DNA of 64,000 bases from Bdellovibrio sp. BCCA (GTDB lineage: Bacteria; Bdellovibrionota; Bdellovibrionia; Bdellovibrionales; Bdellovibrionaceae), in NCBI RefSeq assembly GCF_037996825.1, contig NZ_JBBNAC010000001.1, positions 1,612,001-1,676,000 on the forward strand, written 5' to 3'. Within the stretch, counting starts at the first letter, position 1; every line of letters begins with the position of its first letter. Below the pieces are notes generated by a model, which was not told the DNA's origin, searched no databases, and saw only the letters and a program-made list of their open reading frames with translations. Positions 19,752 through 34,457 of the stretch are shown here, one piece after another. The position numbers were made by a program, and so were the translations under genes.

Positions 19752-19827
19752 GTGGGTATAGCTCAGTTGGTAGAGCATCGGATTGTGATTCCGAGTGTCG
19801 CGGGTTCAAGCCCCGTTACTCACCCCA
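19752..19827 (+). tRNA. tRNA-His (anticodon GTG)
   Basis: The cloverleaf is complete: acceptor GTGGGTA with TACTCAC, D arm with GCTCAGTTGGTAGAGC, anticodon stem TCGGA/TCCGA with loop TTGTGAT, and T arm GCGGGTTCAAGCCCCGT. Anticodon GTG reads His codons. The discriminator is C (19824) and the base before the acceptor is G (19751), the G-1:C73 pair that marks tRNA-His. CCA (19825-19827) is encoded. Its 3' end is the apparent attachment site of the mobile island. Confidence 0.97.
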
Positions 19828-19884
19828 ATTTTCTTCTCTTTTTATCCCTGAATAATCTAAGTAACCGAAATCATTAACGAGTCT
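19820..19884. repeat. attL: imperfect 65-bp repeat, left copy
   Basis: The core TCACCCCA (19820-19827) is followed by blocks that recur in the same order at 34355-34419: ATCCCTGAA (19844), AAGTAACC (19859) and ACGAGTCT (19877). The last block sits at offset 57 from the core in both copies. The identity therefore extends past the usual short att core. Confidence 0.6.
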
Positions 19885-19950
19885 CGTTGCGCGTTTAATT
19901 TCGTTTAAAAATTCGTGCAACACAAAACAACACAATGAAACACAGCGCTT

Positions 19951-19993
19951 GGTGCAACTAAGGTACAAATTTAGGTGTAACCAGGTGTAACTA
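19951..19993. repeat. Tandem integrase arm-type sites, left end
   Basis: Four related direct repeats lie head to tail: GGTGCAACTA (19951), GGTACAAAT (19962), GGTGTAACCA (19974) and GGTGTAACTA (19984). Spacing is 10-12 bp, about one helical turn. The first recurs exactly at 34297-34306 near the right end. Such clusters at element ends are typical arm-type sites for tyrosine recombinases. Confidence 0.55.
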
Positions 19994-20041
19994 ATTTAAC
20001 CCGGAAGGCTGGGGCTTATTCATCCAACTTTTTTTGAATCG

Positions 20042-20118
20042 TCCCTAAACGCGGACGCGACAGGGCTTTAAGCCTCTGTTTTCGTCATGCTTTGGGGACT
20101 TCGATCCCTGTTTAGGGA
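20042..20118. promoter_or_regulatory. Candidate operators of the XRE regulator
   Basis: TCCCTAAAC (20042-20050) and the palindrome TCCCTGTTTAGGGA (20105-20118) lie just ahead of the XRE gene. The second contains both half-sites (TCCCT and AGGGA around GTTT). They probably bind the regulator encoded next (inference). The rest of 19885-20144 shows only the arm repeats. Confidence 0.45.
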
Positions 20119-20144
20119 TTGTTGTCAAAGAACCTCTCTTTTTC

Positions 20145-20459
20145 TTGAAGAATGGGGTTTGGATGAAATTGAACAAAACTCTCACATCACTTTGTAAATC
20201 AAAGGGGCTGACTCTTGCTGAGTTATCTCGTCGCACGGCTATTCCCAAACAGACTCTGCATAATTGGACGATCGGACGTCGTTCGATCAATCCTGATCAA
20301 CTGAAGAAAGTGTCGCAGGTGCTCGAAGTCTCCGTTCATTATTTGTTGTACGGGGAGAATGATCCGTTTGAGGCGCCGTCTGAAGTAATCTTGCGTGAGA
20401 TCTTTTCTGGTGATGTGCGTGTGACTTTGCATCGTATTGAACGAAAGGGCCGAAGATGA
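20145..20459 (+). CDS. XRE-family transcription regulator
   Basis: This 104-residue protein (98 if it starts at ATG 20163, which has GGGG upstream) has one Cro/cI-type helix-turn-helix at about 12-70: LTSLCKSKGLTLAELSRRTAIPKQTLHNW, then a typical ending VSQVLEVSVHYLLYG. A short C-terminal tail follows. It overlaps the next gene by 4 bp (ATGA), so the two are translationally coupled. It probably controls this pair, and perhaps island mobility, through the palindromes upstream. Confidence 0.82.
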   Translation: MKNGVWMKLNKTLTSLCKSKGLTLAELSRRTAIPKQTLHNWTIGRRSINPDQLKKVSQVLEVSVHYLLYGENDPFEAPSEVILREIFSGDVRVTLHRIERKGRR

Positions 20460-21361
20460 AGCATTGGATTTTTCCATTGGTTTTGGGATTTGCATTAACG
20501 TCTCATGCGGAAATCACGAATGATCAACGCGTTGAAAAGCTTCAGAAGGGCGTTGAGCAAGGCAATGTCGAATGGGTGCGTGAAGCCTTTGCTGGATTGA
20601 AAGATCCGTTTAAAAAGGCTCGTGGACTTTTTGGTGGCGAGTCGGGTGTGTTTGCTGAATATAGCAGTGAATACTTTTTGGATAAGGCGTTCATCGCGCA
20701 TCCCTGTAAGGATGAGATCGCGCTGATACTTCTTCAGAGCGGCGCCGTCATGCAAACTTACGAGTTGTTCAAGAAGGCGTCTGAAAGTGGTTGTCCTAAA
20801 TCCGTTCAATATCTCATCGATACGAAAGACTCTGCGTTGACGGCTCAAAGTGCAATGGACTTTTTCAAGTTTTATGGGAAGAAGGTTGGGCAAGTCATTC
20901 GCGATAAAGAGCAGGGCTTAGTTGGCGCCGAAGATGCATTGGATACGTGGGACCCGATTCAGATGTCGTTTGAAAAGTTTGTGATGGAAAAGTGTCCTGA
21001 TCGTACGAAGACTTCCAAAGAGTGTTTGGCTCGTGCCGCGTTCGATGAGACGGCTTCTAACGTGTCTACTCGGGCCGAGGCTGCGAAGAAAAACATCGCT
21101 AAGCAAGAAGCTGAAGATAAGTATTTGGGCTCGCCCGAGGGCATTGCTGCGCAAATCTGTGAGATTGATGAAAGTATCGCTGAGGCTAAGGCTAAGATCG
21201 ACCGGCAGCGGAAGATCGGTAAGGTTTCGGGAACGGTTGATATGAGTGTTTTAAACCTTGCCGGTGCTAGGATTGTTGATCTTGAAGAGCAGCGAAAGGA
21301 ATTGATAGCTGAACTTAGGAAGATAACCGGAAAAGCATTTAAAGAAGCTTCATGTAAATGA
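20456..21361 (+). CDS. Exported protein of unknown function
   Basis: This 301-residue protein has a signal peptide (1-18, LTSHA) and a mainly helical mature part. Residues about 20-130 contain repeat-like helical pairs (VEWVREAFAGL, ALILLQSGAVMQTYELFKKASESGCPKSVQYLID) that recall ankyrin or Sel1 repeats. The C-terminal third is a charged coiled coil (IDESIAEAKAKIDRQRK, IVDLEEQRKELIAELRK). It is coupled to the XRE gene. I do not recognise a family. An exported protein in a defence-like island is unusual. Confidence 0.6.
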   Translation: MKHWIFPLVLGFALTSHAEITNDQRVEKLQKGVEQGNVEWVREAFAGLKDPFKKARGLFGGESGVFAEYSSEYFLDKAFIAHPCKDEIALILLQSGAVMQTYELFKKASESGCPKSVQYLIDTKDSALTAQSAMDFFKFYGKKVGQVIRDKEQGLVGAEDALDTWDPIQMSFEKFVMEKCPDRTKTSKECLARAAFDETASNVSTRAEAAKKNIAKQEAEDKYLGSPEGIAAQICEIDESIAEAKAKIDRQRKIGKVSGTVDMSVLNLAGARIVDLEEQRKELIAELRKITGKAFKEASCK

Positions 21362-21368
21362 ATTCATG

Positions 21369-21395
21369 GGGCGATTTAGATAGTCTAAATCGCCC
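21369..21395. terminator. Perfect 12-bp hairpin between convergent genes
   Basis: GGGCGATTTAGA (21369-21380) pairs fully with TCTAAATCGCCC (21384-21395) around a TAG loop. It lies just after the exported-protein stop and before the convergent gene's stop, so it probably ends transcription in both directions. Confidence 0.65.
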
Positions 21396-21402
21396 GCGGT
21401 AG

Positions 21403-22389
21403 CTATTTTTTTAACTTTTTTCTTACAACTTCACGAAGGCTGTCCTTCCATCCCTCTTTGTGGACAATTCTTTCAAAGTCTTCAGTGGCACTCTTCATCA
21501 GATCGATACGACTCATTTTTGAAAGAGTCTCCCAGGATTCGCCCATCACATAGGCCGCGTTTCCATAGTCGAGATTTTCGAATACAACCACATCATCTGA
21601 AAACTTAGCTCCAAAATAGTGGCGAAACCCATTGCGACCTCTTAGGTAGGCGGTTGGTTGAAGCTTGCTTAGTGTTTCATACCGGTCAGCAATTTTCTTT
21701 TGAAGGAGATCCGGATGTTTTGAGCGGGCTCCTGACATAAGTTTCTGCAAAACTTCTTCTTTGTTTCCTGGGGGCAAAATTTCCCAATCTACATAGAGTG
21801 TATTTGCAAATTCCTCATTGGATGTAGTTGATGCCCAGAGATCCGCATGGCCGACGTTTTCTTGCAACAAGTTGAGGCAAAAAAGAAGATCTCTTTTAAA
21901 AACGGGACTGTTTTTCAAGAGAAGGAATTCAACTACACATTTAACAACTACGAAAGGTTCGGTGTCGGTGCCGTTTCGTAAAATTTCGAAAGAAATTTCA
22001 GCTTCTTTAGGGGCAATTTGATCTCTTTGATAGACCTCTCTCATTTGACCAACCCAATGTGAACCTTTGCTCCAGTCCCCCCATGACGGAGCATAAAACC
22101 CAAACTCCTTCAGTTCTTTAGGAAGATCTTTTCGGATGATCTCTTTACCGTGAAGGTTGACCTTCGAAGCTCTTCCATTTTCTTCGGGAGGGATCACACT
22201 TTGAGGAATATTGAAGTCGCCGCCACGATAGTCGATTCCTACGTGTGCGAACTTTCCAGTTGTTGCTTCCGTAGCAGTGATTTTAAGGGTACACGCAACG
22301 ATAAGTCCGTTTTCTTGGATTTCCTCAATGCGGTTTGTGATTTTGCCGGGAACCTTGCGCCATCCGGACTTCCATTTCTTTCTAGCCAT
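21403..22389 (-). CDS. Unknown protein of the island
   Basis: This 328-residue protein shows no signal peptide or membrane segment. The N-terminal part is strand-rich (GLIVACTLKITATEA). The C-terminal part has a striking conserved-looking block, NGFRHYFGAKFSDDVVVFENLDYGNAAYVM followed by WETLSKMSRIDLM. I have a sense of seeing similar C-terminal blocks in unnamed proteins of mobile elements, but I cannot name the family. It is transcribed alone, opposite to its neighbours, and diverges from the sigma-like operon with a 142-bp gap. Confidence 0.65.
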   Translation of the reverse strand: MARKKWKSGWRKVPGKITNRIEEIQENGLIVACTLKITATEATTGKFAHVGIDYRGGDFNIPQSVIPPEENGRASKVNLHGKEIIRKDLPKELKEFGFYAPSWGDWSKGSHWVGQMREVYQRDQIAPKEAEISFEILRNGTDTEPFVVVKCVVEFLLLKNSPVFKRDLLFCLNLLQENVGHADLWASTTSNEEFANTLYVDWEILPPGNKEEVLQKLMSGARSKHPDLLQKKIADRYETLSKLQPTAYLRGRNGFRHYFGAKFSDDVVVFENLDYGNAAYVMGESWETLSKMSRIDLMKSATEDFERIVHKEGWKDSLREVVRKKLKK

Positions 22390-22531
22390 ACGTACTCCAT
22401 ATTTTGCGGGCGAAATTGCCCTTCAACATATAAATGCCCCGCTTTGAGACAGTTCGGACATTGCCTCGCGTTTTTTCTAAAAAAAATGCCATCTTTGCCG
22501 AATAGAAACAGAAGTCTATTTATGGAGGGGT

Positions 22532-23116
22532 ATGGGCAAATTGGATGAATACGCTAGCCCAGAGGAGTTTTCTTTGGCTTTGAAGAGCCTTAATAAAGAG
22601 GAGTTGGCAAAACTGGCACTTTACGCGCGTTATCGAACAAGAGGACTAGAGAAAAAAGCGGGAGATGTCATGGGTCCTGAGAGTTTGATGTCAGAGGCTG
22701 TTGTTAGAACTCTAGAAGGAACCAGGAAATGGAGAAAGTCAGTTGACGTGCTTATGCACCTTACTCAGACCATGAGGAGTATATCTTCGCATTGGCGAAG
22801 AGCTTTGAAGGAAGGCACGGGACCTGCTGAAGCCATAATGGAACGAGTTGATTTTAGTGTTTTTGAAGAGTCTGAACCTACGAATGGCAGCCCTGAAGAT
22901 CGATTGTATATCCTAGAAGACCTTAGGGCCTTAAAGGAGATCTTTGTGGGCCAGGGAGACGTCTTAGGAGTGATAACAATGATGGGGGAGGGATTTTCTA
23001 AGGAAGAGATCTGCCGAACATTAAAAATTCAAGAAAATGACTTCGAGGCCGTCCGAAAGAGAATTTCTAGGGGCATTATCAAGCTGAGAGAACAAGGAAA
23101 ACTGAATTATGAATGA
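22532..23116 (+). CDS. Sigma-70-like (ECF-type) factor of the ImmA operon
   Basis: This 194-residue protein looks like a divergent sigma factor. Residues 15-90 resemble region 2 (LAKLALYARYRTRGLE, SEAVVRTLEGTRKWRKSVDVLMHLTQTMRSISSHW). Residues about 130-190 resemble region 4 with an HTH (LGVITMMGEGFSKEEICRTLKI, AVRKRISRGIIKLREQ). It begins a three-gene operon with 8-bp and 4-bp overlaps that ends in an ImmA-type protease. It may direct island promoters or act as a DNA-binding regulator; the -10 recognition segment is not well preserved. Confidence 0.7.
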   Translation: MGKLDEYASPEEFSLALKSLNKEELAKLALYARYRTRGLEKKAGDVMGPESLMSEAVVRTLEGTRKWRKSVDVLMHLTQTMRSISSHWRRALKEGTGPAEAIMERVDFSVFEESEPTNGSPEDRLYILEDLRALKEIFVGQGDVLGVITMMGEGFSKEEICRTLKIQENDFEAVRKRISRGIIKLREQGKLNYE

Positions 23117-23531
23117 TAAGAAGCCAGTTAAGGGATTAGAGCGTCATATTGAAGAGTCCTTGTTTAAAATGGATAGCGCTGAGTTTTCGGCGTTTATTGC
23201 CGAGCTGGGTTTTAATATAGATGCTTTGGCGGAAATGACCACAAGATCATTTGCAGAGGCAGATCGCCGAGTTAGAAAACAACGGTTGGTGACGGCAAGA
23301 GGAATGGTTGGGCAAAGGGTAAGGGTATCTGCAGCGGCGGAGATTAAAAAGACGTTTGAGGAGAAAAAACGCCTTCTCAGTGACCTGATGAACTCCGGTA
23401 TATCAATCGGGGGGCTTACTTTTCAGAATAGAGATTTCAAAGAGCTTACGGAAGGTGATGTCGATGTGATCCTACGCCAACTTGACCAATTGGGTGTTCT
23501 TAAGAAGTTTGAAGATGGGAATGACAAATGA
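23109..23531 (+). CDS. Unknown middle protein of the sigma/ImmA operon
   Basis: This 140-residue, charged, mostly helical protein has no signal or membrane segment. I do not recognise its family. It overlaps both neighbours (8 bp and 4 bp), so its dose is tied to theirs. Its position between a sigma-like factor and a metalloprotease would fit a protease target, such as an anti-sigma or repressor protein, but that is inference. Confidence 0.7.
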   Translation: MNDKKPVKGLERHIEESLFKMDSAEFSAFIAELGFNIDALAEMTTRSFAEADRRVRKQRLVTARGMVGQRVRVSAAAEIKKTFEEKKRLLSDLMNSGISIGGLTFQNRDFKELTEGDVDVILRQLDQLGVLKKFEDGNDK

Positions 23532-24298
23532 CGTACAAGCCTGCTGAGAAGCTTTTGTATGAGTTGGGGATAGAAGAGCCTGGAGATATAGATATTGATG
23601 CGATTGCGGCTTATCTTCATGCACCCATAGAGTATGAACCTCTTTCGGGAGCGGAAGGTCGAATAATCGGCTATGCTGATCGAGCTATTATCACTGTTAA
23701 TTCATCGTCGCCCAAAGCTCGACAGAGATTCTCAGCTGCTCATGAAATAGGTCATTGGATGCGAGACAGAGGGACAAACTTCACGTGCTCCCTTGGTGAT
23801 ATGACTTCAAAGTGGTCGTTAAATGATCCGGAATATCGAGCTAATAGATATGCTGCTGATCTTTTGATGCCGAAAGCTATGTTTCAAAAATATGCTAAGA
23901 ACCTACCAATTACTCTGTCGACAGTTAGAAAGTTGGCGACTTCATTTGAGACCAGTCTTACGGCAACGGCAATACGTCTGATTGAACAAGGAAGTTTTCC
24001 TTCGATGGTTCTCATGACGGAAGGAAATGTTGTAAAATGGGGACTGCGTAATAAGTTGGTCCCATACGAGTTGCAGTATGTGAAGTTGCTCGATAAGTCT
24101 TCTAATACTTATCGTGTTCTTTCCGGCGCGATAAAAGACGTCGATTCTCGGGACGTTTCTGCTGATATGTGGATCGATCATTCAAATGCATCCGACTATA
24201 CGATAAAAGAGAGCGCATTTGCCTGCGGTGAAGATAAGGTATTAAGTCTTCTTTGGTGGGAGGATGAGGGGCAAATTGTGGATCTAGACGAGGACTAA
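23528..24298 (+). CDS. ImmA/IrrE-family metalloprotease
   Basis: This 256-residue protein has the ImmA/IrrE domain (PF06114). The zinc motif is AAHEIGHW with His72, Glu73 and His76. The later helix with Glu102 and ANRYAADLLMP supplies the third ligand region. ImmA of ICEBs1 cuts the repressor ImmR to free the element, and IrrE/PprI cuts a repressor of stress genes. Here no ImmR lies directly beside it; possible targets are the middle protein of this operon or the XRE regulator at 20145. The C-terminal 100 residues are an unassigned extension. Confidence 0.9.
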   Translation: MTYKPAEKLLYELGIEEPGDIDIDAIAAYLHAPIEYEPLSGAEGRIIGYADRAIITVNSSSPKARQRFSAAHEIGHWMRDRGTNFTCSLGDMTSKWSLNDPEYRANRYAADLLMPKAMFQKYAKNLPITLSTVRKLATSFETSLTATAIRLIEQGSFPSMVLMTEGNVVKWGLRNKLVPYELQYVKLLDKSSNTYRVLSGAIKDVDSRDVSADMWIDHSNASDYTIKESAFACGEDKVLSLLWWEDEGQIVDLDED

Positions 24299-24310
24299 TG
24301 CTCGATGCTC

Positions 24311-24402
24311 TGCATTCTTGACCTCGATCCGCGATTGGCTACTCCTTTGGGATGGTGCATTCTTGATGTCGATCCATGCTTTTTTTGCACTTATTCTTGA
24401 TG
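24311..24402. repeat. Direct repeats after the immA-type gene
   Basis: Two 20-bp copies with 18 matches start at 24311 and 24356 (TGCATTCTTGA, then CGATCC at the end), 45 bp apart. A partial third copy, ATTCTTGATG, is at 24393-24402. They fill the gap before the next gene and could bind a regulator. Confidence 0.5.
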
Positions 24403-24460
24403 AACAATGGCTCTGAGCGACCCTAACTGATAAAGACTTCTCCAATTGGGAGTCTGATCA

Positions 24461-25153
24461 ATGAAGAGACCTTATTCCGAAAAAATGAATAACATAGCCG
24501 ACTATTTTGATCGGTATATTCAAATGTACGCAAATAAGTACGGTTTCGACTATTCGGAAATTCAAAAGAAAATGGGTATAACTGAGAGTCTTCCTTTGGG
24601 AGTGGCTGTTGATCAATACGCCGAAGAGAATATTTTCGGCTTAATACCTAAAGATATTCCGAAAGCAGAGAGGGATAAGCTCGATTTTCTTCTTAGTATT
24701 CGAGGTGGAGTAGATTCTTTGCACTTCAAGACATTCGATGTTCCTCAGATATTGGAAGTCACGGAACTCCTTATTGAAGCACTCGTAAATCTTCATCATA
24801 CCCCACCATCGACGAAGGCCCATCATGCTTCACCGAGGTTAGGCAAAAAGAATACGGCTACGCAGTTTATGCGAAACTTATCTATTCTATATTTTAAAAC
24901 TCGTCCCGACGCAGAGAATAGGGACTTATATAGAATCATGACAACTGAAAGTCTGTTTGAAGATCTTCAGCGTGAGTTTAATGAAGGTACTATCGAGCTT
25001 GAGATTGATTGGGGTAAGAGTTCTTCTGAGATACTTTTCTATAGAGATTCAAAGGGATCAACAGGCGTCTTTGAAGAGCGCAACTTAAAGAACATCATCT
25101 CCAGGGCCAGAACAGCTTCTGCGTGGTATAAATTCGAAGATGAAATGCCTTAG
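24461..25153 (+). CDS. Unknown soluble protein of the island
   Basis: This 230-residue protein has no signal peptide or membrane segment. It is helical in the first half (MNNIADYFDRYIQMYANKYGFDYSEIQKKMG, VTELLIEALVNLHHTPP) with a strand-rich end (ELEIDWGKSSSEILFYRD). I cannot assign a family. It follows the repeat cluster and is probably a separate transcript. Confidence 0.65.
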   Translation: MKRPYSEKMNNIADYFDRYIQMYANKYGFDYSEIQKKMGITESLPLGVAVDQYAEENIFGLIPKDIPKAERDKLDFLLSIRGGVDSLHFKTFDVPQILEVTELLIEALVNLHHTPPSTKAHHASPRLGKKNTATQFMRNLSILYFKTRPDAENRDLYRIMTTESLFEDLQREFNEGTIELEIDWGKSSSEILFYRDSKGSTGVFEERNLKNIISRARTASAWYKFEDEMP

Positions 25154-25269
25154 AGGTTAAACTCTGAACGCAAGGCATCTCACATAATCAAAATCGTGAG
25201 ACAATAGATATTTTCTTTACTCCTCCTTTTGGCTAATAAAATGGCCACGACGTACAGAAAGGAGGATAA

Positions 25270-25455
25270 ATGATCAAAACAGATGAAAAGCTACTAACGG
25301 AAGCTGAAGTGTCGATAATCTTGGGTATTAAGCAACGCACTCTCCAACAATGGAGACTGACCGAACGCGGACCCAAATTTTTGAAGTTATCGGCCCGTGT
25401 AGTTCGATATCGTTTAAGTGATGTTCAAAATTGGATTTCCGAAGCTCAGCTATAA
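25270..25455 (+). CDS. AlpA/MerR-type HTH DNA-binding protein
   Basis: This 61-residue protein is almost all winged helix-turn-helix: LLTEAEVSIILGIKQRTLQQWRLTERGPKFLKL, then VVRYRLSDVQNWISE. This is the helix_turn_helix_17 pattern of AlpA, Xis-like and phage regulators. A very good ribosome site (AAAGGAGG) precedes the ATG. In islands such proteins act as excisionases or switch on the integrase. It lies 0.8 kb ahead of the second HTH protein and the first integrase. Confidence 0.85.
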   Translation: MIKTDEKLLTEAEVSIILGIKQRTLQQWRLTERGPKFLKLSARVVRYRLSDVQNWISEAQL

Positions 25456-25584
25456 TTGAAGCTGGAAAAAGCATCGTGAGATAATTCTTTAAAATCAAAA
25501 AATAAAACCAAACAAATACCAAGGCTTAGGCGTCGCAAACCTTTTAAGCCAATGGTTTCGTATGGTCCAAACGCTGGAGTTAGT

Positions 25585-26259
25585 ATGAGTAACTTAATGA
25601 TTGAAGTTAAACAAGAGGAAAGCGCGAGAGCTAGATATATGCGCCGTATGAAGCAACTAAAGTATGAGTATGGATTGGTGAAGCTAAACGACTGGGAGGC
25701 TTTAGGCAGGCTTTATCGTCGTATTAAAGATCGGAATGGACTGTCGTGGCAGTATGAAGATCTTTGTACGCGACTCAATCGAAGTCGGTCAGCAGAATTC
25801 TGTCGAACTCCGGCAGAAGATAAGTTTATCGCTCGCTTTAAGGGTAATTGGAAAATTCAGCTTTACCCTCAAGCGTGGATTGGAAATTTATGCGTAGATC
25901 TTTTTACTCCTGCTTTGGGGCGCAGACCTCCGGATTACCGAAGAGGGTTTCTTGAAAAGGGTGTGGCCATTGAGATTGATGGAGCAATTCATAACTCTGA
26001 ATTAAAAATGAAGAAAGATGCGCATAAAGAAAAAAGTCTTTCTGACCTGAATATTCAATTATGGCGATTTACAAATGAGCAGGTTTTTAGAAATGTCGGC
26101 TTGCCGAGAAAGCATGACCTTTCTGAAGACTTTGGGCGTCTATCCACTCAGGAAAGAAAAAGGCTATGGGGGAAGATCCAATTGATGACATTGCTTTATC
26201 ACGAATCTCTGAATGTTATCGAACGATACTTTCCAGGTGTTGTATTGGGGGCAGTATGA
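25585..26259 (+). CDS. DUF559/Vsr-like nuclease-fold protein
   Basis: From ATG 25585 (GGAG 9 bases upstream) the protein is 224 residues. The C-terminal half looks like the DUF559/very-short-patch repair endonuclease fold: CVDLF (Asp105), VAIEIDGAIHN (Glu130, Asp132, His136), then a basic stretch with KDAHKEKSL and LQLWRF-type ending, LNIQLWRFTNEQV. It may cut or nick DNA during integration, or serve in defence. It is followed by the excisionase-like gene with a 4-bp ATGA overlap and then the integrase, so it belongs to the mobility operon. Confidence 0.65.
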   Translation: MSNLMIEVKQEESARARYMRRMKQLKYEYGLVKLNDWEALGRLYRRIKDRNGLSWQYEDLCTRLNRSRSAEFCRTPAEDKFIARFKGNWKIQLYPQAWIGNLCVDLFTPALGRRPPDYRRGFLEKGVAIEIDGAIHNSELKMKKDAHKEKSLSDLNIQLWRFTNEQVFRNVGLPRKHDLSEDFGRLSTQERKRLWGKIQLMTLLYHESLNVIERYFPGVVLGAV

Positions 26260-26459
26260 AATTTAATAGCAGAGGCTTCGATGGACGCCTGACTGGGCAG
26301 GGTTGGATGAAGACAGATCAAGTGGCCATCTACTTGGGCACATCGCCTAACAACATTCGAAATATGGTGTATCGCCTCAAGTTATTTCCAAAGAAGTTTA
26401 TGGGGCGCTGGTACTTCAATCGTGAAGAGATCGATCAGCTTATTATGGCGGGGGGGTAG
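26256..26459 (+). CDS. Excisionase-like HTH protein
   Basis: This 67-residue protein starts at ATG 26256, overlapping the previous stop (ATGA), with GGGGG just before. It has a MerR/AlpA-like HTH: GWMKTDQVAIYLGTSPNNIRNMVYRLKL, then RWYFNREEIDQLI. Its position 2 bases upstream of the integrase gene is the usual place for a recombination directionality factor. Confidence 0.8.
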   Translation: MKFNSRGFDGRLTGQGWMKTDQVAIYLGTSPNNIRNMVYRLKLFPKKFMGRWYFNREEIDQLIMAGG

Positions 26460-26461
26460 CA

Positions 26462-27559
26462 ATGGGAGTTCGTTATTCTGAAGAAGGCCAAAAGCCTGGA
26501 TATTTTATAACCTGTGTTGCAAAAAGCATGATTCGTCCGGAAGTTGTCATCCGAAAGCAACGATATTTGGGGCGCGTTTCTGAGAGGGACGCGCAGCTCG
26601 AGTATAGACAGCTGTATGGCGAGGTTAGGAGGGCCCTGCTTATGCGTGAGCGCGGGGAGGTGTCTTGGGGGCATATTCTTGAATCGTGGTGCCATGACGT
26701 TGTTATGGCGTCCCCGAGGGGTACTTTCTCAAAGCAAGATACTTATCAAGCTTTGAGGCTGCATACGAAAAATTGGTTCAATGTGCCGGTCGATAAGATC
26801 ACAACGCTGTCTTTTCAAATGGTGATTAACGAAATGGAAAATGTCGGTTTATCCAGAGGTCGGATTCGCGCAGTGAAGTGCGCGGTCAGCGTGGTCTTCG
26901 AGTGGGCTATTTTGAATAAACTGATTCCGCCAACAACACTTTGTCCGACAAAGGGGGCTCGTTTGCCGAAAGCAGTAAAAAAAGAGAAACCTGTGCTGAA
27001 CAGTAAAGAGATCGAATATCTTCTTGCGAAAGCTTTGGAAGATAAACATCAGTATTTTCCTGTTTGGGCAGTTGCTTTTGAGACGGGGTGTAGAGCTGGT
27101 GAACTCTGGGCTCTTAAGTGGAACGACGTGGATTTTGATCAAAATATAATTACGATTTCAAAGTCGCACAACTTTCGATCGGGCATCGTTAAGCCTCCCA
27201 AAAATAATAAAACAAGGGTTGTGCCGATGAGTAGGGAGTTTAAGGTTTTCTTGTCATATCTTAAAGAAACTACAGGATCATCAGGATATATTCTGCCCAG
27301 AATCTCCTCATTGAAGAATGGAAAAGCCGCGATGATTTTGAGGCATTTCTGTCGAGAGATTGGAGTGCCAGAAATTCCGTTTCACGGGACACGCGCGTGC
27401 TTTGCTACTTTATGTTTGAATAGAGGGGTGCCGTTAACGAAGTTGATGGCTGTAGGGGGCTGGAGCCGTCTTAGTAGTGTTCAGCATTATACTCGATTGG
27501 TTGGCACTGAGATCAGGGGTATTACTGACGACTTTAATATTCTTCCGATTATAAGTTGA
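26462..27559 (+). CDS. Tyrosine recombinase (phage-type integrase), copy 1
   Basis: This 365-residue integrase has an N-terminal DNA-binding part, a core-binding domain (about 70-160) and the catalytic domain. The active residues are Arg211 (TGCRAGELWAL), His308 and Arg311 (FHGTRACFA), Trp334 in the second-His position (GGWS), and the nucleophile Tyr343 (QHYTRL). It aligns without gaps from residue 68 to about 360 with the second integrase 5 kb downstream. It should act on the tRNA-His site or an internal site. Confidence 0.95.
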   Translation: MGVRYSEEGQKPGYFITCVAKSMIRPEVVIRKQRYLGRVSERDAQLEYRQLYGEVRRALLMRERGEVSWGHILESWCHDVVMASPRGTFSKQDTYQALRLHTKNWFNVPVDKITTLSFQMVINEMENVGLSRGRIRAVKCAVSVVFEWAILNKLIPPTTLCPTKGARLPKAVKKEKPVLNSKEIEYLLAKALEDKHQYFPVWAVAFETGCRAGELWALKWNDVDFDQNIITISKSHNFRSGIVKPPKNNKTRVVPMSREFKVFLSYLKETTGSSGYILPRISSLKNGKAAMILRHFCREIGVPEIPFHGTRACFATLCLNRGVPLTKLMAVGGWSRLSSVQHYTRLVGTEIRGITDDFNILPIIS

Positions 27560-27593
27560 TGGAGTTTTGTCAGGTCGTATTTAATGAGAACCA

Positions 27594-28604
27594 TCATATT
27601 CCATTCTTGTAATTGCGGGGGACTGTATATTCATCGCCGCCAATGTTGATTTGAGCTCTGGATCGAAGTGGGTCGCGAAATGCACTCTCGTTGTCATGCA
27701 ATAGATCGGAACAGAAGGAAAAGTCATCTCTAGCGGAATAAATGTATCGAGTCGATTGCAAGGTTTGTAACGAGTTATAGTAATCGATGTGGTCTGAATG
27801 TAGTTCAAAGGGGCGTCTATCATAGTTATCGGCAACTTCTTGGGTTAAAGCCAATGGACAGGTCCAGATCAATAAATGATTTGGACTGACCGGCAAAGCG
27901 ACTTCGGTTCCCTTCGCGCCCCAAGCTAAAGGTTTTCCTAGATGTGAAGTCATTACTACTGGGTTGTCTGAAATGAGAAGAGGTTTATTTGTATTATTAA
28001 TTCCGATGGTCCATATTTTGTTTAAACAATGATCATGGAGCTTGTTTAGTAATTGTTCGTCAAAGGCGGCGCGACTATGCTCAAGAGCTTCTCCTCCTTC
28101 TTCAATGGTAATTTTTAATTCGGGTTTGGATTTTCCTGATATTTTCTTTATCTGATCTGAGTCAAGAAACCAGTCGAAGATTGCTTTCTGAAAAAGCATT
28201 TTTGTTTGAGTACTGAACTCCCTAAACTCTTTGGTTCTAACAGTTTGAATTACAGCTAACCACCCGAGTTCATGCATTAAGTGATCTGGTATGAAATATT
28301 TGGGAAATCCAGAAGGAGAGAGTAATGCTGCGGATTTGATATTTTGGAGAAACTCAAAAAGGCTTTTACTGGATCGAGTGTCTATATCTTCATAGATATC
28401 TTCTACAAACTCATTATTTCCTGGTTTAGTGAGAAACTTATCTGGAATGGAATAAAATCGATTTTCTGAGCCAAGATCCATTATCGGCGAACCATGAGAT
28501 TTACCCGTTGTTTTGTCGTAGGCCCATAGATGAGTTTTATTCTCTGAAAATTGACGAAGTAGGAATCTGGGAACGTAATGATGTTTTTTCTTGGTATTAG
28601 ACAT
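27594..28604 (-). CDS. DUF4238 protein
   Basis: This 336-residue protein starts with the DUF4238 signature KKKHHYVPRFLLRQFSE. Later features of the family are LLISDNPVV near 218 and ALPVSPNHLLIW near 240. The N-terminal HHYVP block recalls histidine-containing nuclease motifs, and DUF4238 genes are frequent in defence and mobile regions; its function is not known. It is downstream of the small gene at 28597 with an 8-bp overlap, and the pair is divergent from the reverse transcriptase gene. Confidence 0.88.
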   Translation of the reverse strand: MSNTKKKHHYVPRFLLRQFSENKTHLWAYDKTTGKSHGSPIMDLGSENRFYSIPDKFLTKPGNNEFVEDIYEDIDTRSSKSLFEFLQNIKSAALLSPSGFPKYFIPDHLMHELGWLAVIQTVRTKEFREFSTQTKMLFQKAIFDWFLDSDQIKKISGKSKPELKITIEEGGEALEHSRAAFDEQLLNKLHDHCLNKIWTIGINNTNKPLLISDNPVVMTSHLGKPLAWGAKGTEVALPVSPNHLLIWTCPLALTQEVADNYDRRPFELHSDHIDYYNSLQTLQSTRYIYSARDDFSFCSDLLHDNESAFRDPLRSRAQINIGGDEYTVPRNYKNGI

Positions 28605-29100
28605 TTTGTCTATCCTTGTTCTCTACTTCGCGGACAACTGTCTTCAAGTTCGATAGTTGGCTTCCCAGCTTGACACTCTTTCGTTGAACGCCTGTTAATT
28701 CGATCTCAAGTAGGGTCGGAGTAGTCGCAATGGGGAGAGAGTCAGAAAAGTGCATTGAGATAAGTTTGGCTTGGCCGGGAGCAAGATCAATGGGAATCGG
28801 CAGCGACATTTTTACTCCAAGAAAGTCATGAGATTCTAATATAGAGTGCATCATAGTCACTTCTATTTCTTCGTTAGGAAATTTGAGCCAGGCTGACGTG
28901 ACGGATTGAAGTCGTTTGGTGTTATTAGAAGCTAGGACTGTCACTTCGGTAATATTATAATTTGTGTACTGATGTGGAGCTCTCTGAGTGAATTGAATCC
29001 GGAGGCTGACTTTTCCGAAGAAGTAATCAAAAAAGTGGGTCACGCGTATCAAGATGTATGAAAAAATCTTTGTTAATGCTGTTTCTATAGCTGGGGGCAT
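28597..29100 (-). CDS. Unknown partner of the DUF4238 protein
   Basis: This 167-residue protein has a hydrophobic aromatic N-terminal stretch (KIFSYILIRVTHFFDYFFGKVSL) that may attach to a membrane. A beta-rich part follows (YNITEVTVLASNN, IEVTMMHSIL, LLEIELTGVQRK) resembling an immunoglobulin-like fold. I do not recognise the family. It overlaps the DUF4238 gene by 8 bp, so the two probably act together. Confidence 0.6.
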   Translation of the reverse strand: MPPAIETALTKIFSYILIRVTHFFDYFFGKVSLRIQFTQRAPHQYTNYNITEVTVLASNNTKRLQSVTSAWLKFPNEEIEVTMMHSILESHDFLGVKMSLPIPIDLAPGQAKLISMHFSDSLPIATTPTLLEIELTGVQRKSVKLGSQLSNLKTVVREVENKDRQNV

Positions 29101-29298
29101 GGAAAAACCTCTTTAGGAACAAAACGATGTACTCGGCCATTTTGTCAACTCATGAGATTTGATTTGGTCTTATAAGCGTGCTGAGTCCCGAGGGGGCGGT
29201 GGGTCATATAAGAGTCTGGACTCGACTAAGTGTGGGTCCTTTGGATCTGGAACTCTACTTTCTTGATTGATTGCAAGAAAACACATCATAGTTTATTA
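29101..29298 (+). other. Structured leader before the DRT1 gene
   Basis: This 198-bp divergent intergenic region has a local GC-rich part at about 29178-29240. In it AGTC and GACT around TG (near 29211-29220) and GGACTC with GGGTCC (about 29217-29238) can form hairpins. Some defence reverse transcriptases need a neighbouring noncoding RNA; this would be the place for one. No RNA family is recognised. Confidence 0.3.
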
Positions 29299-32200
29299 AT
29301 GAGTAAACCATCATTGTTTGATCGCAAAGAACTTCTAGTTGCCTATAAAAGATTGAAATCATTTTGCTATCGAGACGGAGCAGACCTTTTTCTTCGAAAA
29401 AAAATAGCGGAATTTGAATACGAATTTAAGGATGAAGACGCGCTTAATATTAAGTTGGCGTCAATTGTGAGGGATTTAGAGCTTTTTTGGAGTGAGGGCT
29501 TAGTTCCATCATGGATGGAGCAAATCTCGTTTCAGATATTTCCCAAGAAGCTTGAGCCGATCAGTCAACCTGAAGTTCAGACTTTTATAAAGAGTCTGGA
29601 AAAAAGTAGCGATTTTAAATTATGTCGTACTCTTTTGCAGATTCAAGCTGGCGTTGAAGTACATTTTGTATCGATTCTATGGACGATGTTCGTAGGAGTG
29701 GTCTTCGATGAGTTATTGAGCGACAGTGTGTACAGCAATCGTCTTAATTCTGATGAAGACAAGGATATGTTAAAATATTCTACCAGGCTCTTTCGTCCAT
29801 ACTACAAGGACTATGCGAGTTGGAGAAACGGTTCAATAGAGCAAGTTAAGTCCGCACATGAGTTGAAAAATAACGCGACAATAATCTCGCTCGATATTAA
29901 AGACTACTACTACAATGTAGATCTTGATTTAGAGGCGATCGTTCATGATCCAATAAAAATAGATATCGAACTCAAGACTGACCAGCAGAAGATCTTGAAT
30001 CGCGCATTACATCAGGTGCACGAGATCTTTCATAAGAAAATTGGGGCCTCAAAAAAATTACTTCCTATTGGGTTGCCCTCTTCAGGTGTATTGGGTAACT
30101 ACGCGTTACATGAAGTTGATTCTGACATCAAAGAGAGTATTAACCCAATTTACTATGGAAGATATGTTGATGACATAATAATGGTGGTTCAAAATCTTGC
30201 GATTGACGACCATAAGTTTTTTCAAGTTCTTGATGCTCTATTTAAGAAGACGAAGCGTATAAAACTGGAGAAGTATACTGACGAATCGAATCCGAAATGT
30301 ATAAAGGAACGAACGAATATTAACTTTAAAACTTCTTATGGCGCTCATTGTGCTCAGATGGATAAGTTAAAGATTTTTGATTTTCACAAGGATGCCCCGA
30401 TTTCTCTTTTGGAAGAATTTGAAAGGGAGATTGAAAGATTCTCAAGTGAGGGACGGTTGCTTGCTGAAGATATGGATGTACTTGAAAGATTTAATTCTGA
30501 ATCTCGAAAAATTTCATACTCTGACAGTATTTTTAAATTGAGATCTATAGAGAAATTTGATCTCAATAGACTTGGGTTTTCAAGGTTTCTAAGTAGTTTG
30601 ATTCAAACTTCGAGAGTGACTACCAAAATTCAAGAGGATGATTTTCAGTATATTCATGCTCAGATAATATCGATAGTTACGGGTCAAGATGCAATTTTGA
30701 CCTATCGACTATGGGAAAAGTTAGTAAGCATTTATGTTTCCCACAATCGAATTAAAGAACTCGAAGAGTTTGTAATCGAAATTATGGGAGGAATTCATAA
30801 GCTTGATATTTCCTCGGATGTGAATAGTTTTACGCCAAAGTCAGTACATATTCCATCATTGAGCGATTCGCAGATTCGATCATCTTGGTTTTCATACCTC
30901 GCGCGGGTTATCATACTCTCCTTTTCAGCAGCTGGTGGATATAAGGATTTAAAGAGATTTCACAGCGTATTGGAGTCTACGCGTGCGACAGTTTTTGAGT
31001 CGGAAAGAAAAGCATATCGAACTAGGCTATCCAGTGATTTTGCAGAAGCGGAGCTTGAGATTAAGCAGTTAAGAAAGTCCGCGATGTTTAGGCATAATTT
31101 TTGTCCGGTGCCAATGGTTGCTTTTTGTAAAGACAATGATGATCTTGATTTTAATACCTTGAGAGATAACTTGGGTAAAGGTTTCGAAGGAAGCTTTCAA
31201 TGGGAAACAGCAAATTTGAAAATTAAGTTATCTCCTAGATTTATAAATTATAGTGAGATTTCTGAGCTTCATATAATACAAAGTTTAAAATCGGGAAATT
31301 CAATTGCACTTCCGGACTTAGTTAATCAGGTAAATGTGTCATATCGAGAATTCAATTTGATTCCCGAAGCTGATTTGTTGGAAGGGCTTCCTAAGGTTTA
31401 TGGAGAATCCAAAGAAGACGGAGCATCTGTTGATGACCTTTCTCAGATAACAATTCGTATTGATAAGAAGCACTCCGATGTACTTCGAGTGGGAGTTGCT
31501 AATGTAGATATACCTCTGACCTATATTGAACAGCGATTTGCCATGAAACCAGACTTATCGCATTCGAGGTTGATTGAGTTGAACAGGGTTTTGAATATTG
31601 CGGTGAGGGAACGCGAAAAGGTTGATTTGTTAGTTTTTCCTGAAGTTTTTATTCCGTTTGAGTGGATTGACTATGTCGCATCCTTTTGCAAAGTGAATAA
31701 CATTTCGGTAGTAGCTGGGCTCGAGCATGTTCTAGCTGGTGGGGAAGTTTATAACTACATGGTTGTGATAATGCCATTTAGTATGAATGGTATCCGAAAT
31801 GTCATGACGGGTTTGATTCCAAAGGCTGATTTGAATAAGGACGAGTCAAAGTTAATTAAAAATATTGGCATGGTTCAAGGTAAAGTGAACTATCAGAAAA
31901 TTGTTTTTGAATGGAATGGGGCACAGCTTAGCCTGTTAAATTGCCTTGAATTGTCTGATATTCGAAAACGATCTTGGATGAGAGGTGTGATTGATTGCTT
32001 AGTAGCTATTGAGAACAACTCAGATACAAGCTATTTTTCTAGTATAGTGGAATCAACTGCTCGCGATCTCCACTGTTATGTTGTTCAGGTTAATAATTCG
32101 AAGTTTGGGGATAGTCGCATAACTGGCCCGTTACCATCAGTTCAAAGAGACATGTTAAGAGTGAAGGGTGGGGAAAATAAGACGGTGCTTGTGCAGTCTT

Positions 32201-32346
32201 TGCCCATAAATGAATTGAGAAGATTCCAGCATTTCGGTGATTCTTATGAAGATCTTGGCGGTAAAGTCGATTTTAAGCCATTGTCACCAAATTTTCCGCG
32301 ACCAAGTAGCAAAAGAATGCCTAGTTATAGAAAAAGAAAAAAGTAA
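29299..32346 (+). CDS. drt1: DRT1-type defence reverse transcriptase with nitrilase domain
   Basis: This protein (1015 residues from ATG 29299) has two enzymes in one chain. Residues about 150-360 form a reverse transcriptase: motif A SLDIKDYYYNV (Asp199), motif B PIGLPSSGVLGNY, and YVDD (289-292). After a helical middle, residues about 730-960 form a nitrilase-like domain with the triad Glu782 (VFPEVF), Lys842 (LIPKAD) and Cys882 (LLNCLE). This is the architecture of DRT type 1 (UG1), a known anti-phage reverse transcriptase. The frame is open to GTG 29230, which would add 23 residues. No strong ribosome site is seen. Confidence 0.92.
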   Translation: MSKPSLFDRKELLVAYKRLKSFCYRDGADLFLRKKIAEFEYEFKDEDALNIKLASIVRDLELFWSEGLVPSWMEQISFQIFPKKLEPISQPEVQTFIKSLEKSSDFKLCRTLLQIQAGVEVHFVSILWTMFVGVVFDELLSDSVYSNRLNSDEDKDMLKYSTRLFRPYYKDYASWRNGSIEQVKSAHELKNNATIISLDIKDYYYNVDLDLEAIVHDPIKIDIELKTDQQKILNRALHQVHEIFHKKIGASKKLLPIGLPSSGVLGNYALHEVDSDIKESINPIYYGRYVDDIIMVVQNLAIDDHKFFQVLDALFKKTKRIKLEKYTDESNPKCIKERTNINFKTSYGAHCAQMDKLKIFDFHKDAPISLLEEFEREIERFSSEGRLLAEDMDVLERFNSESRKISYSDSIFKLRSIEKFDLNRLGFSRFLSSLIQTSRVTTKIQEDDFQYIHAQIISIVTGQDAILTYRLWEKLVSIYVSHNRIKELEEFVIEIMGGIHKLDISSDVNSFTPKSVHIPSLSDSQIRSSWFSYLARVIILSFSAAGGYKDLKRFHSVLESTRATVFESERKAYRTRLSSDFAEAELEIKQLRKSAMFRHNFCPVPMVAFCKDNDDLDFNTLRDNLGKGFEGSFQWETANLKIKLSPRFINYSEISELHIIQSLKSGNSIALPDLVNQVNVSYREFNLIPEADLLEGLPKVYGESKEDGASVDDLSQITIRIDKKHSDVLRVGVANVDIPLTYIEQRFAMKPDLSHSRLIELNRVLNIAVREREKVDLLVFPEVFIPFEWIDYVASFCKVNNISVVAGLEHVLAGGEVYNYMVVIMPFSMNGIRNVMTGLIPKADLNKDESKLIKNIGMVQGKVNYQKIVFEWNGAQLSLLNCLELSDIRKRSWMRGVIDCLVAIENNSDTSYFSSIVESTARDLHCYVVQVNNSKFGDSRITGPLPSVQRDMLRVKGGENKTVLVQSLPINELRRFQHFGDSYEDLGGKVDFKPLSPNFPRPSSKRMPSYRKRKK

Positions 32347-32383
32347 CTTCCAAAAAAAATAGTTACCAATTGCGGCAATCTAT

Positions 32384-32436
32384 GGGAAGTCCGGTCCAGC
32401 TCTTTGACATTCAAAAAGCTGGATGAACCCCAGTCT
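32384..32436. other. Stem-loop between DRT1 and integrase 2
   Basis: TCCAGCT (32395-32401) pairs perfectly with AGCTGGA (32417-32423) across a 15-base loop. GGAAG and CTTCC outside can add an outer stem. It lies in the 110-bp gap before the second integrase and could be a terminator-like stem, an mRNA element or a recombination site. Confidence 0.4.
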
Positions 32437-32456
32437 TCCTCAAATGGGAGGAAGAT

Positions 32457-33593
32457 ATGGCAATTAAAACATATCAAAAAGACGGGCATACTTGCTTTAA
32501 GATCCAATTTACATCTCGAAGTCGTATCGCGGGGATTATTGTGCGTATTCAACGAGATCTTGGCGTAGTTACTCATGCTGAAGCGAAGCGCGAACATGAA
32601 AAGATAAAAAAGGAAGCTGAGATCAAGCGAATCGAAAAAGAACGAAATGGGTTTGTCTGGCGCGATCTTTTGTCGCGTTGGTACAAAGATGTCGTCTTGA
32701 ATGGGCCCTATGAAGACAGTACGAGCAAGCGAGACAATTACAGCGCTCTTCAAATGCATACAAAGGCTTGGATGTTAACGCCCGTTGAGCAACTGCGCCC
32801 AATTTCGATGAGATTGATCTTTAATGAAATGGAGAGAAAGGAATTATCGAAAGGTCGCATGAAGTCAGTGCGAAGTGCTGTAAATACCATTTTTGACTGG
32901 GCCCGTTTAGAACGTATTATTCCCGCCCATATCGAGAGTCCCGGCCGAGGGGCCGCAATACCCAAGGTTGAAACAAAAATACAACCTATTCTCAATCGGG
33001 ACGAAATTAAACTCTTTTTAAGAAAGGCACGAGAAATCGGTCACGAGTATTATTATTTGTGGGCTGTGGCCGTAAGTACAGGATGCCGATCCGGGGAGTT
33101 GTGGGCGTTGAGATGGACGGATGTTTCATTCGAGACGAGAATGATTTCCATCACGAAGTCATTCTCAAGTAGGCTGGGATGCGACAAATCTACCAAAACC
33201 AAAGAGTCTCGGCAGATCCCTATCAATATAGCCCTCGAAACGCTCTTAAAGGAGTTAAAATTGAGGACTGCATCGACGGGTTACGTTCTTCCCAGAATCA
33301 CATCATGGAGGCGTGGAGAGGCGTCTAAGGTGTCTAGGAACTTTTGTCAGGCTCTGGGGCTTCCAGAGATTACATTTCATGCGACCCGAGCTTGTTTTGC
33401 AGTTCAGTGTCTAGTCGGTGGGTTAGACATTGTGACTACAATGAAACTCGGGGGCTGGAAGAATGTTAAAAGCTTTCAACACTATGTTCGCCTGGCGGGG
33501 GTTGATATTCGTGGAGCGACGGACGTACTAGATTTAATCCCAATTGAAGTTGATTCCAAGGTTTTGCCAATAAAAAAGCTCGAATCTATTTAG
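32457..33593 (+). CDS. Tyrosine recombinase (phage-type integrase), copy 2
   Basis: This 378-residue integrase has catalytic Arg211 (TGCRSGELWAL), His308 and Arg311 (FHATRACFA), Trp334 (GGWK) and Tyr343 (QHYVRL). These are exactly the positions found in copy 1, with no gaps between residue 68 and about 362. The first 65 residues differ more. GGAGG precedes the ATG. It is the integrase closer to the right end, which suggests it may be the one that placed the island, but either could act. Confidence 0.95.
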   Translation: MAIKTYQKDGHTCFKIQFTSRSRIAGIIVRIQRDLGVVTHAEAKREHEKIKKEAEIKRIEKERNGFVWRDLLSRWYKDVVLNGPYEDSTSKRDNYSALQMHTKAWMLTPVEQLRPISMRLIFNEMERKELSKGRMKSVRSAVNTIFDWARLERIIPAHIESPGRGAAIPKVETKIQPILNRDEIKLFLRKAREIGHEYYYLWAVAVSTGCRSGELWALRWTDVSFETRMISITKSFSSRLGCDKSTKTKESRQIPINIALETLLKELKLRTASTGYVLPRITSWRRGEASKVSRNFCQALGLPEITFHATRACFAVQCLVGGLDIVTTMKLGGWKNVKSFQHYVRLAGVDIRGATDVLDLIPIEVDSKVLPIKKLESI

Positions 33594-33636
33594 GGGTAAA
33601 TATATAACGAACTGATTTCGATTAGCGGAGGGGTAA

Positions 33637-34290
33637 ATGGACAATCAGAATGAGATGTCGCAGAAGATCTGGGATCAGCTTAAGGACGTGGTTGAAAGGC
33701 CGGGGCCCTCTGATGATCTAAGTAGAGCGATGGGTCAATTTCTTTTCTATCAAAATAGAATTGAAATTCTCATGGAGCGATTAATTCTAAGCTTATGCCC
33801 TCAAGTAAAGCATTATATGGAATCAAAGAACAAAATGAACTTCAGTGAAAAGCTGTTACTTCTAGAGAGTGTCACTGCAGATTTCGATAAAATTCCATTA
33901 TTCAAACTATTGAAAGAGTTAAATACTGTTCGTAATAAGCTTGCACATAAGGAGTTTTCTGACGACATGTTTGATTCAGAAAAGCTTTTAAAGTTAGTGC
34001 AGGCGTCTTTTCCAATGGGGCCACCTGAGCTTGCAAGAGTTGGAAACGCCGGGAAAATTACTATCGCTGTCAAGGCCTCTGCAGTTACCAATATATACCT
34101 AGAATGCATTGTTAATACGGAGCGTTTTGGACGCGAGGAAGATGCAGAATTTAAATTTAAGGATGAGTTGGCAGAGACTTATCGGAACGCTCTCGAAAAG
34201 CGGCTTCGGAACCTGATAATGAAGTTTCAAACCCGTTTAAAAGAGCCAGAGCTTGGTGAGTATCAAAAAAAGCTGGGTATGACTCCGTAA
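33637..34290 (+). CDS. HEPN-like helical protein
   Basis: This 217-residue, mostly helical protein contains ELNTVRNKLAHKEF with Arg99 and His104, the Rx4-6H motif of HEPN ribonucleases and nucleotide-transfer targets. The helices before it (FLFYQNRIEILMERLILSL, FSEKLLLLESV) fit the HEPN four-helix fold. Many toxins and abortive-infection proteins have this fold, but proteins with the fold are not always nucleases. I see no nucleotidyltransferase partner. It is the last gene before the right end. Confidence 0.6.
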   Translation: MDNQNEMSQKIWDQLKDVVERPGPSDDLSRAMGQFLFYQNRIEILMERLILSLCPQVKHYMESKNKMNFSEKLLLLESVTADFDKIPLFKLLKELNTVRNKLAHKEFSDDMFDSEKLLKLVQASFPMGPPELARVGNAGKITIAVKASAVTNIYLECIVNTERFGREEDAEFKFKDELAETYRNALEKRLRNLIMKFQTRLKEPELGEYQKKLGMTP

Positions 34291-34296
34291 ATCATA

Positions 34297-34306
34297 GGTG
34301 CAACTA
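34297..34306. repeat. Arm-type site, right end
   Basis: GGTGCAACTA here is identical to the first left-end repeat at 19951-19960, and the bases after it (AGAGAGGCAAAT) are similar to those following the left copy (AGGTACAAAT). Position 49 bp inside the right core fits an integrase arm site. Confidence 0.5.
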
Positions 34307-34339
34307 GAGAGGCAAATCAGATCTAAATAGCTGAAATCA

Positions 34340-34370
34340 GGGTGATGCCGAAGTTCACCCCATTTTTTTT
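34340..34370 (+). terminator. Intrinsic terminator at the right junction
   Basis: GGGTGA (34340-34345) pairs with TCACCC (34355-34360) around a 9-base loop, followed by a T run (34363-34370). The 3' arm is the att core itself, so the attachment site doubles as the terminator for the HEPN-like gene. Confidence 0.7.
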
Positions 34371-34419
34371 CTTTTATAAATCCCCTGAAAATTTAAACAA
34401 GTGACCTCATGACGAGTCT
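34355..34419. repeat. attR: imperfect 65-bp repeat, right copy
   Basis: The core TCACCCCA (34355-34362) is followed by ATCCCCTGAA (34380), AAGTGACC (34399) and ACGAGTCT (34412), the same blocks as at 19820-19884. The rest of the tRNA is not duplicated: only CCG and the core match the tRNA 3' part here. Confidence 0.6.
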
Positions 34420-34457
34420 TCGTGCATTTGCACAGCTTGCTCTTTTGCGTCCGGCGT

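Follow-up and report, generated by a model that had tools for sequence, protein, structure and literature searches.

The window, i.e. the whole stretch of 64,000 nucleotides of Bdellovibrio sp. BCCA DNA analysed here, contains a mobile island of about 14.5 kb (about 19828-34372), on which an intact gene (29299..32346, + strand) encodes a reverse transcriptase (RT) fused to a nitrilase. The island lies at a tRNA-His gene (19752..19827, +), just 3' of which the homology and synteny of the core chromosome stop in most relatives. An att-like repeat at this edge (19820..19896, +), with the 18-bp core TCACCCCAATTTTCTTCT, recurs at 34355..34430 (+) as TCACCCCATTTTTTTTCT, which carries two mismatches; within the window the core has no further copies, and the two repeats resemble each other over about 75 bp. 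The tRNA-His edge and the repeat at 34355 thus delimit the island and, together with two integrases, confirm the mobile setting that the earlier note had proposed. These integrases are tyrosine recombinases, which are 40% identical to each other: recombinase 1 (26462..27559, +, assigned by Pfam) and recombinase 2 (32457..33593, +, PF00589). The island may be composed of two adjacent elements, each with its own recombinase; an att-like repeat between the two recombinases was not found.

The RT-nitrilase gene is located just upstream of recombinase 2 and of a gene for a HEPN-like protein (33637..34290, +; weak HEPN matches), which carries an RNKLAH (Rx4H) motif and travels with this recombinase. 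Further to the left, a CapP gene (8e-57) and a weak CapH-like partner (0.0015) form a regulatory pair (23109..24298, +). The genes that follow it (24461-26259), one of which has a weak DUF559/REase match, could be a system regulated by CapH/CapP. A DUF4238 gene (27594..28604, -; Pfam) and a gene for 167 amino acids, which overlap each other (27594-29100, -), are divergent from the RT gene. The neighbourhood had been called defence-like, which holds for CapP and, at the level of weak matches, for the CapH-like and HEPN-like proteins, but not for other genes of the island, which have no known defence role. Rfam reported only rRNA and tRNA, with no non-coding RNA found near the RT-nitrilase gene. 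Promoter and terminator scans scored below shuffled expectation, and their predictions were therefore left unused.

Architecture and family of the RT-nitrilase

The RT-nitrilase reading frame encodes 1015 amino acids and a stop codon, with no internal stops in translation. Although the frame is already open at a GTG further upstream (29230), the conservation of N-termini favours the ATG at 29299 as the probable start codon. The single-chain AlphaFold2 model (mean pLDDT 84.8, pTM 0.88), computed from 45 window and locus proteins, resolves three parts. The RT domain (about residues 136-362; 29704..30384, +), delineated by the Pfam RVT_1 match (175-322, 5.6e-11, above the cut-off), invariant residues and secondary structure, carries D199 in motif A and YVDD in motif C (289-292). 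It is followed by an alpha-helical repeat domain (about residues 394-722; 30478..31464, +) and by the nitrilase domain (about residues 725-1001; 31471..32301, +). The latter scores below the cut-off with Pfam CN_hydrolase (766-945, 16.7 vs 23.2 bits), but in the model it matches amidases and nitrilases with Z about 21-23 (VIA-align), so that the weak Pfam score reflects divergence of the domain rather than its absence. Foldseek matches to the RT include AbiA, AbiK and DRT9 (low TM-scores); with a library up to April 2026, the DRT1 structure was absent among the matches listed.

The full-length match to the PADLOC UG5-nitrilase model (PDLC03780; residues 7-1011, 700 bits, 1.5e-210), the best among RT classes, identifies the protein by profile as UG5-large (UG5-nitrilase), a divergent member of a known anti-phage type. 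The earlier note had assigned it to DRT1/UG1. This label was ruled out by the same comparison, as the Drt1a profile reached only 82.5 bits over short stretches (best stretch 145-318); membership of an anti-phage family, which the note had also claimed, holds for UG5 as well, and an anti-phage role of this particular protein is probable. The UG5-nitrilase model scores the E. coli and Sinorhizobium plasmid relatives at 1017-1034 bits. The protein had seemed short, but the fused UG5 proteins in our sampled set have a median length of 1010 amino acids, so that 1015 residues are normal.

As a single-sequence query, the window protein (P0001) found no matches in genome and viral contigs, nor did a Tblastn search against phage records. 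With an alignment-based query, 376 relatives from many phyla were found among the matched contigs, 80 of which were kept for analysis; a few relatives were also found in viral contigs. The catalytic residues named in the earlier note, i.e. YVDD, Glu782, Lys842 and Cys882, are all present in the protein; together with D199 and with E849, which completes the nitrilase tetrad, they are invariant across 64 aligned UG5 relatives. YVDD and the tetrad remain invariant when four longer RT-nitrilases are added to these 64 sequences. The union of RT and nitrilase in one chain is likewise upheld by the intact frame, RVT_1, the nitrilase fold and the full-length UG5 match.

In size, domain fusion and invariant residues the protein resembles UG5-large, but its overall identity to any sampled relative does not exceed about 32%, and it stands outside any supported subclade. 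In a quick RT tree, which has long branches and lacks the full UG/Abi reference set, it falls into the unresolved base with no supported partners, and its family assignment therefore rests on the profile scores. UG5-small shares the RT-helical chain, including Ser383, but differs in consisting of two genes instead of one, with the nitrilase encoded directly downstream. These split forms are scattered among the fused ones on the RT tree, and its starred branches force at least three changes, a rough count because some rows labelled small are broken or partial reading frames and not true split genes.

Four long RT-nitrilases of Bdellovibrionota (1119-1175 amino acids; L095:4591-8115, L097:4301-7768, L098:4601-8071 and L099:4784-8140), a type also found in the window's genus (G012), have YVDD, the tetrad and a KxxPPxW-like C-terminal tail in common with the window protein. 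They differ from it by their length, by forming a separate starred clade, and by the lack of an end-to-end match with either the Drt1a or the UG5 model; they may represent an unnamed RT-nitrilase class. A Drt1a search across the phylum returned no matches, not even for the controls, and is hence uninformative.

Type I restriction genes lie within a few kilobases of UG5 at about 10-12 of the approximately 84 loci inspected, which supports a defence role of the family. At five loci examined with Pfam (L018, L020, L043, L058 and L081), hsdR was found next to UG5 or in its vicinity; one of them has the order hsdM-hsdS-UG5-hsdR (L018). Beyond these genes, the nitrilase of the split forms and scattered integrases, no recurrent accessory gene was found among the approximately 84 loci. 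Instead of protecting the host from phages, the gene might serve the maintenance of its element or competition between elements, for instance with other mobile elements. Its position directly upstream of the element's integrase would fit such a function, as would the different RT at the same place in a second genome of the genus (G006), but elsewhere UG5 relatives are part of type I restriction operons that lack such integrases, and we consider this explanation unlikely.

Relation to DRT1 and a proposed mode of action

A profile of 45 UG5 proteins matches 9YFD, the structure of DRT1 (2e-28); the match consists of two segments, 148-690 and 1004-1226, which cover RT, helical repeats and nitrilase. 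UG5 and DRT1 are, judged by this profile match, homologous RT-nitrilases ('class 3'), and the published mechanism of DRT1 is thus the best available model for the window protein. The earlier note had described the DRT1 mechanism as not settled, which is partly out of date, since a cryo-EM structure of DRT1 and a mechanism have been published (PMC13275509). According to this study, template-free, protein-primed DNA adducts drive DRT1 into tetramers and filaments, defence needs both RT and nitrilase activity, and until infection the pocket of the nitrilase is kept shut by a swapped C-terminal tail (PMC13275509). The study also reports template-free synthesis of protein-linked DNA by DRT1, DRT5S and DRT5L in purified form (PMC13275509). 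We infer that DRT5S and DRT5L correspond to the small and large forms of UG5, because class 3 is defined there by an RT combined with a nitrilase or phosphohydrolase.

The two families share the order of RT, helical repeats and nitrilase, the catalytic tetrad and a KxxP[PA]GF tail. DRT1 proteins (1176-1229 amino acids) differ in being about 215 residues longer than the window protein, whose helical domain lacks about 100 residues relative to DRT1, so that filament contacts may differ between the two. A further difference concerns the priming residue. In DRT1, Ser402 was identified as the primer by mass spectrometry, its exchange (S402A) abolishes defence, and its conservation does not extend to other class 3 enzymes (PMC13275509). 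The profile alignment to 9YFD sets the DRT1 segment GTS402SIPE against SSEFRFLPE of UG5, which places Arg386 of the window protein, and no serine, opposite Ser402. Three aligned residues away, near a one-residue gap, lies Ser383 of UG5 (codon at 30445..30447, +), which is a serine in 63 of 64 UG5 proteins (threonine in one) and in all 21 small or broken relatives that align at this position, while the neighbouring positions vary. At 389, the window protein has an alanine in place of the usual proline. This near-invariance and the proximity to the DRT1 primer lead us to propose Ser383 as the candidate priming residue of UG5, for which we found no report in the literature. Alternatively, Ser383 could have a structural role.

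Like the near-invariant Ser383, the C-terminal tail supports a transfer of the DRT1 mechanism to UG5. In DRT1 it reads K1219-T-Q-P-A1223-G-F1225 (numbered from the UG5-DRT1 alignment), and both K1219A and A1223F abolish defence (PMC13275509). The UG5 counterpart KxxPPxF has its lysine in 61 of 63 relatives and corresponds in the window protein to K993-P-L-S-P-N-F999 (32275..32295, +), with a serine at position 996 where UG5 has a proline; its equivalence to the DRT1 tail was judged by eye, as the profile alignment stops before it. Being common to UG5 and DRT1, this lid-like motif is not diagnostic of DRT1 membership.

In our interpretation, the window gene probably constitutes by itself an abortive-infection system of the UG5-large type (class 3 RT) and follows a DRT1-like scheme. 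The RT domain, working without a template and primed by its own residue, for which we propose Ser383, would add short single-stranded DNA to itself. Driven by these DNA adducts, the nitrilase domains would assemble into the oligomeric form required for nitrilase activity, with the KxxPPxF tail covering the active site like a lid. Upon infection by a phage, this block would be lifted, and the nitrilase, with C882 as nucleophile, would attack an essential metabolite and thereby halt the cell before the phage can spread. In this scheme, all steps from priming and adduct formation through assembly and gating to cell death are projected onto the window protein from DRT1 and from published class 3 biochemistry. 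Points that speak against it are the serine at 996, the alanine at 389, the shorter helical domain, the island genes of no known defence role and the lack of conservation of Ser402 beyond DRT1.

A different division of labour, in which DNA synthesis by UG5 directly provides the sensing or effector function, comparable to AbiK or DRT9, and the nitrilase is mainly an oligomerisation scaffold, appears improbable to us. Nitrilases are oligomeric, class 1 RTs work without a hydrolase, and AbiK, AbiA and DRT9 are among the structural matches; a mere scaffold would nevertheless be hard to reconcile with four invariant catalytic residues in 64 relatives, with the loss of defence in the DRT1 mutant C1116A (PMC13275509), and with the separate nitrilase that is kept in the UG5-small operon. 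Least probable is the original view of the protein as a DRT1/UG1 enzyme, for which the RT-nitrilase fusion, the identical tetrad, the common tail and the homology to 9YFD could be cited, but which conflicts with the local Drt1a match of 82 bits against 700 bits for UG5, with the UG5-like length, and with the missing counterpart of Ser402 at the aligned position.

A sibling element and reverse transcriptases in the genus

The right part of the island has a sibling in G006, a genome of the same genus, which keeps the block corresponding to 32351-34369, i.e. recombinase 2 (81-84% identical), the HEPN-like gene (73% identical) and the right end. This copy adjoins tRNA-Met and a tRNA-His-like fragment: at L179 16019-16188, a 47-bp piece resembling the 3' end of tRNA-His lies between tRNA-Met and the element, which is about 0.9 Mb away from the tRNA-His locus of that genome. 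The slot upstream of the G006 recombinase is occupied by a 1572-aa primase-RT fusion (L179:9161-13879, -; PF01896 and RVT_1), whose best PADLOC models, UG36 and UG10, reach only 56-65 bits. A SIR2_2 gene adjoins it.

Among 24 genomes of the genus, the pair of recombinase and HEPN-like gene was found only in the window's genome and in G006. An RVT_1 search of the same 24 genomes returned only four RTs, two of them in this slot, but RVT_1 misses divergent RTs such as that of G012. With this limitation and only two cases, an 'RT cassette slot' beside the recombinase-HEPN module stays a lead. A broken copy of the recombinase accompanies other cargo in G013. Outside the genus, the HEPN-like gene was seen in G210, where it lies at the end of a contig and follows a series of putative type I restriction genes that were recognised by size and order only; no RT was seen there. 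The window's own genome also encodes a type II-A retron (L185:2782-4658, -; C1 about 2527.3-2529.2 kb), with an RT (354 bits), a nucleoside deoxyribosyltransferase-like partner (178 bits) and a SIR2-looking gene nearby. Only tentatively do we put forward the combined picture that UG5 primes from Ser383, that it shares the lid-gated nitrilase of DRT1, and that the UG5-nitrilase here and the primase-RT in G006 belong to several interchangeable defence-RT cassettes that the genus carries in the slot beside the recombinase-HEPN module.

Our analysis corrects the family of this RT-nitrilase from DRT1 to UG5. The near-invariant serine beside the DRT1 primer turns the question of UG5 priming into a testable point, and the shared tail suggests that the lid mechanism of DRT1 is general to RT-nitrilases. 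Judged by its relatives, the host belongs to the phylum Bdellovibrionota, and the predatory lifestyle named in the earlier note is plausible for it. The mobile-element slot with its different reverse transcriptases is thus documented for a genus of the Bdellovibrio type, in which phage defence seems to have received little study.
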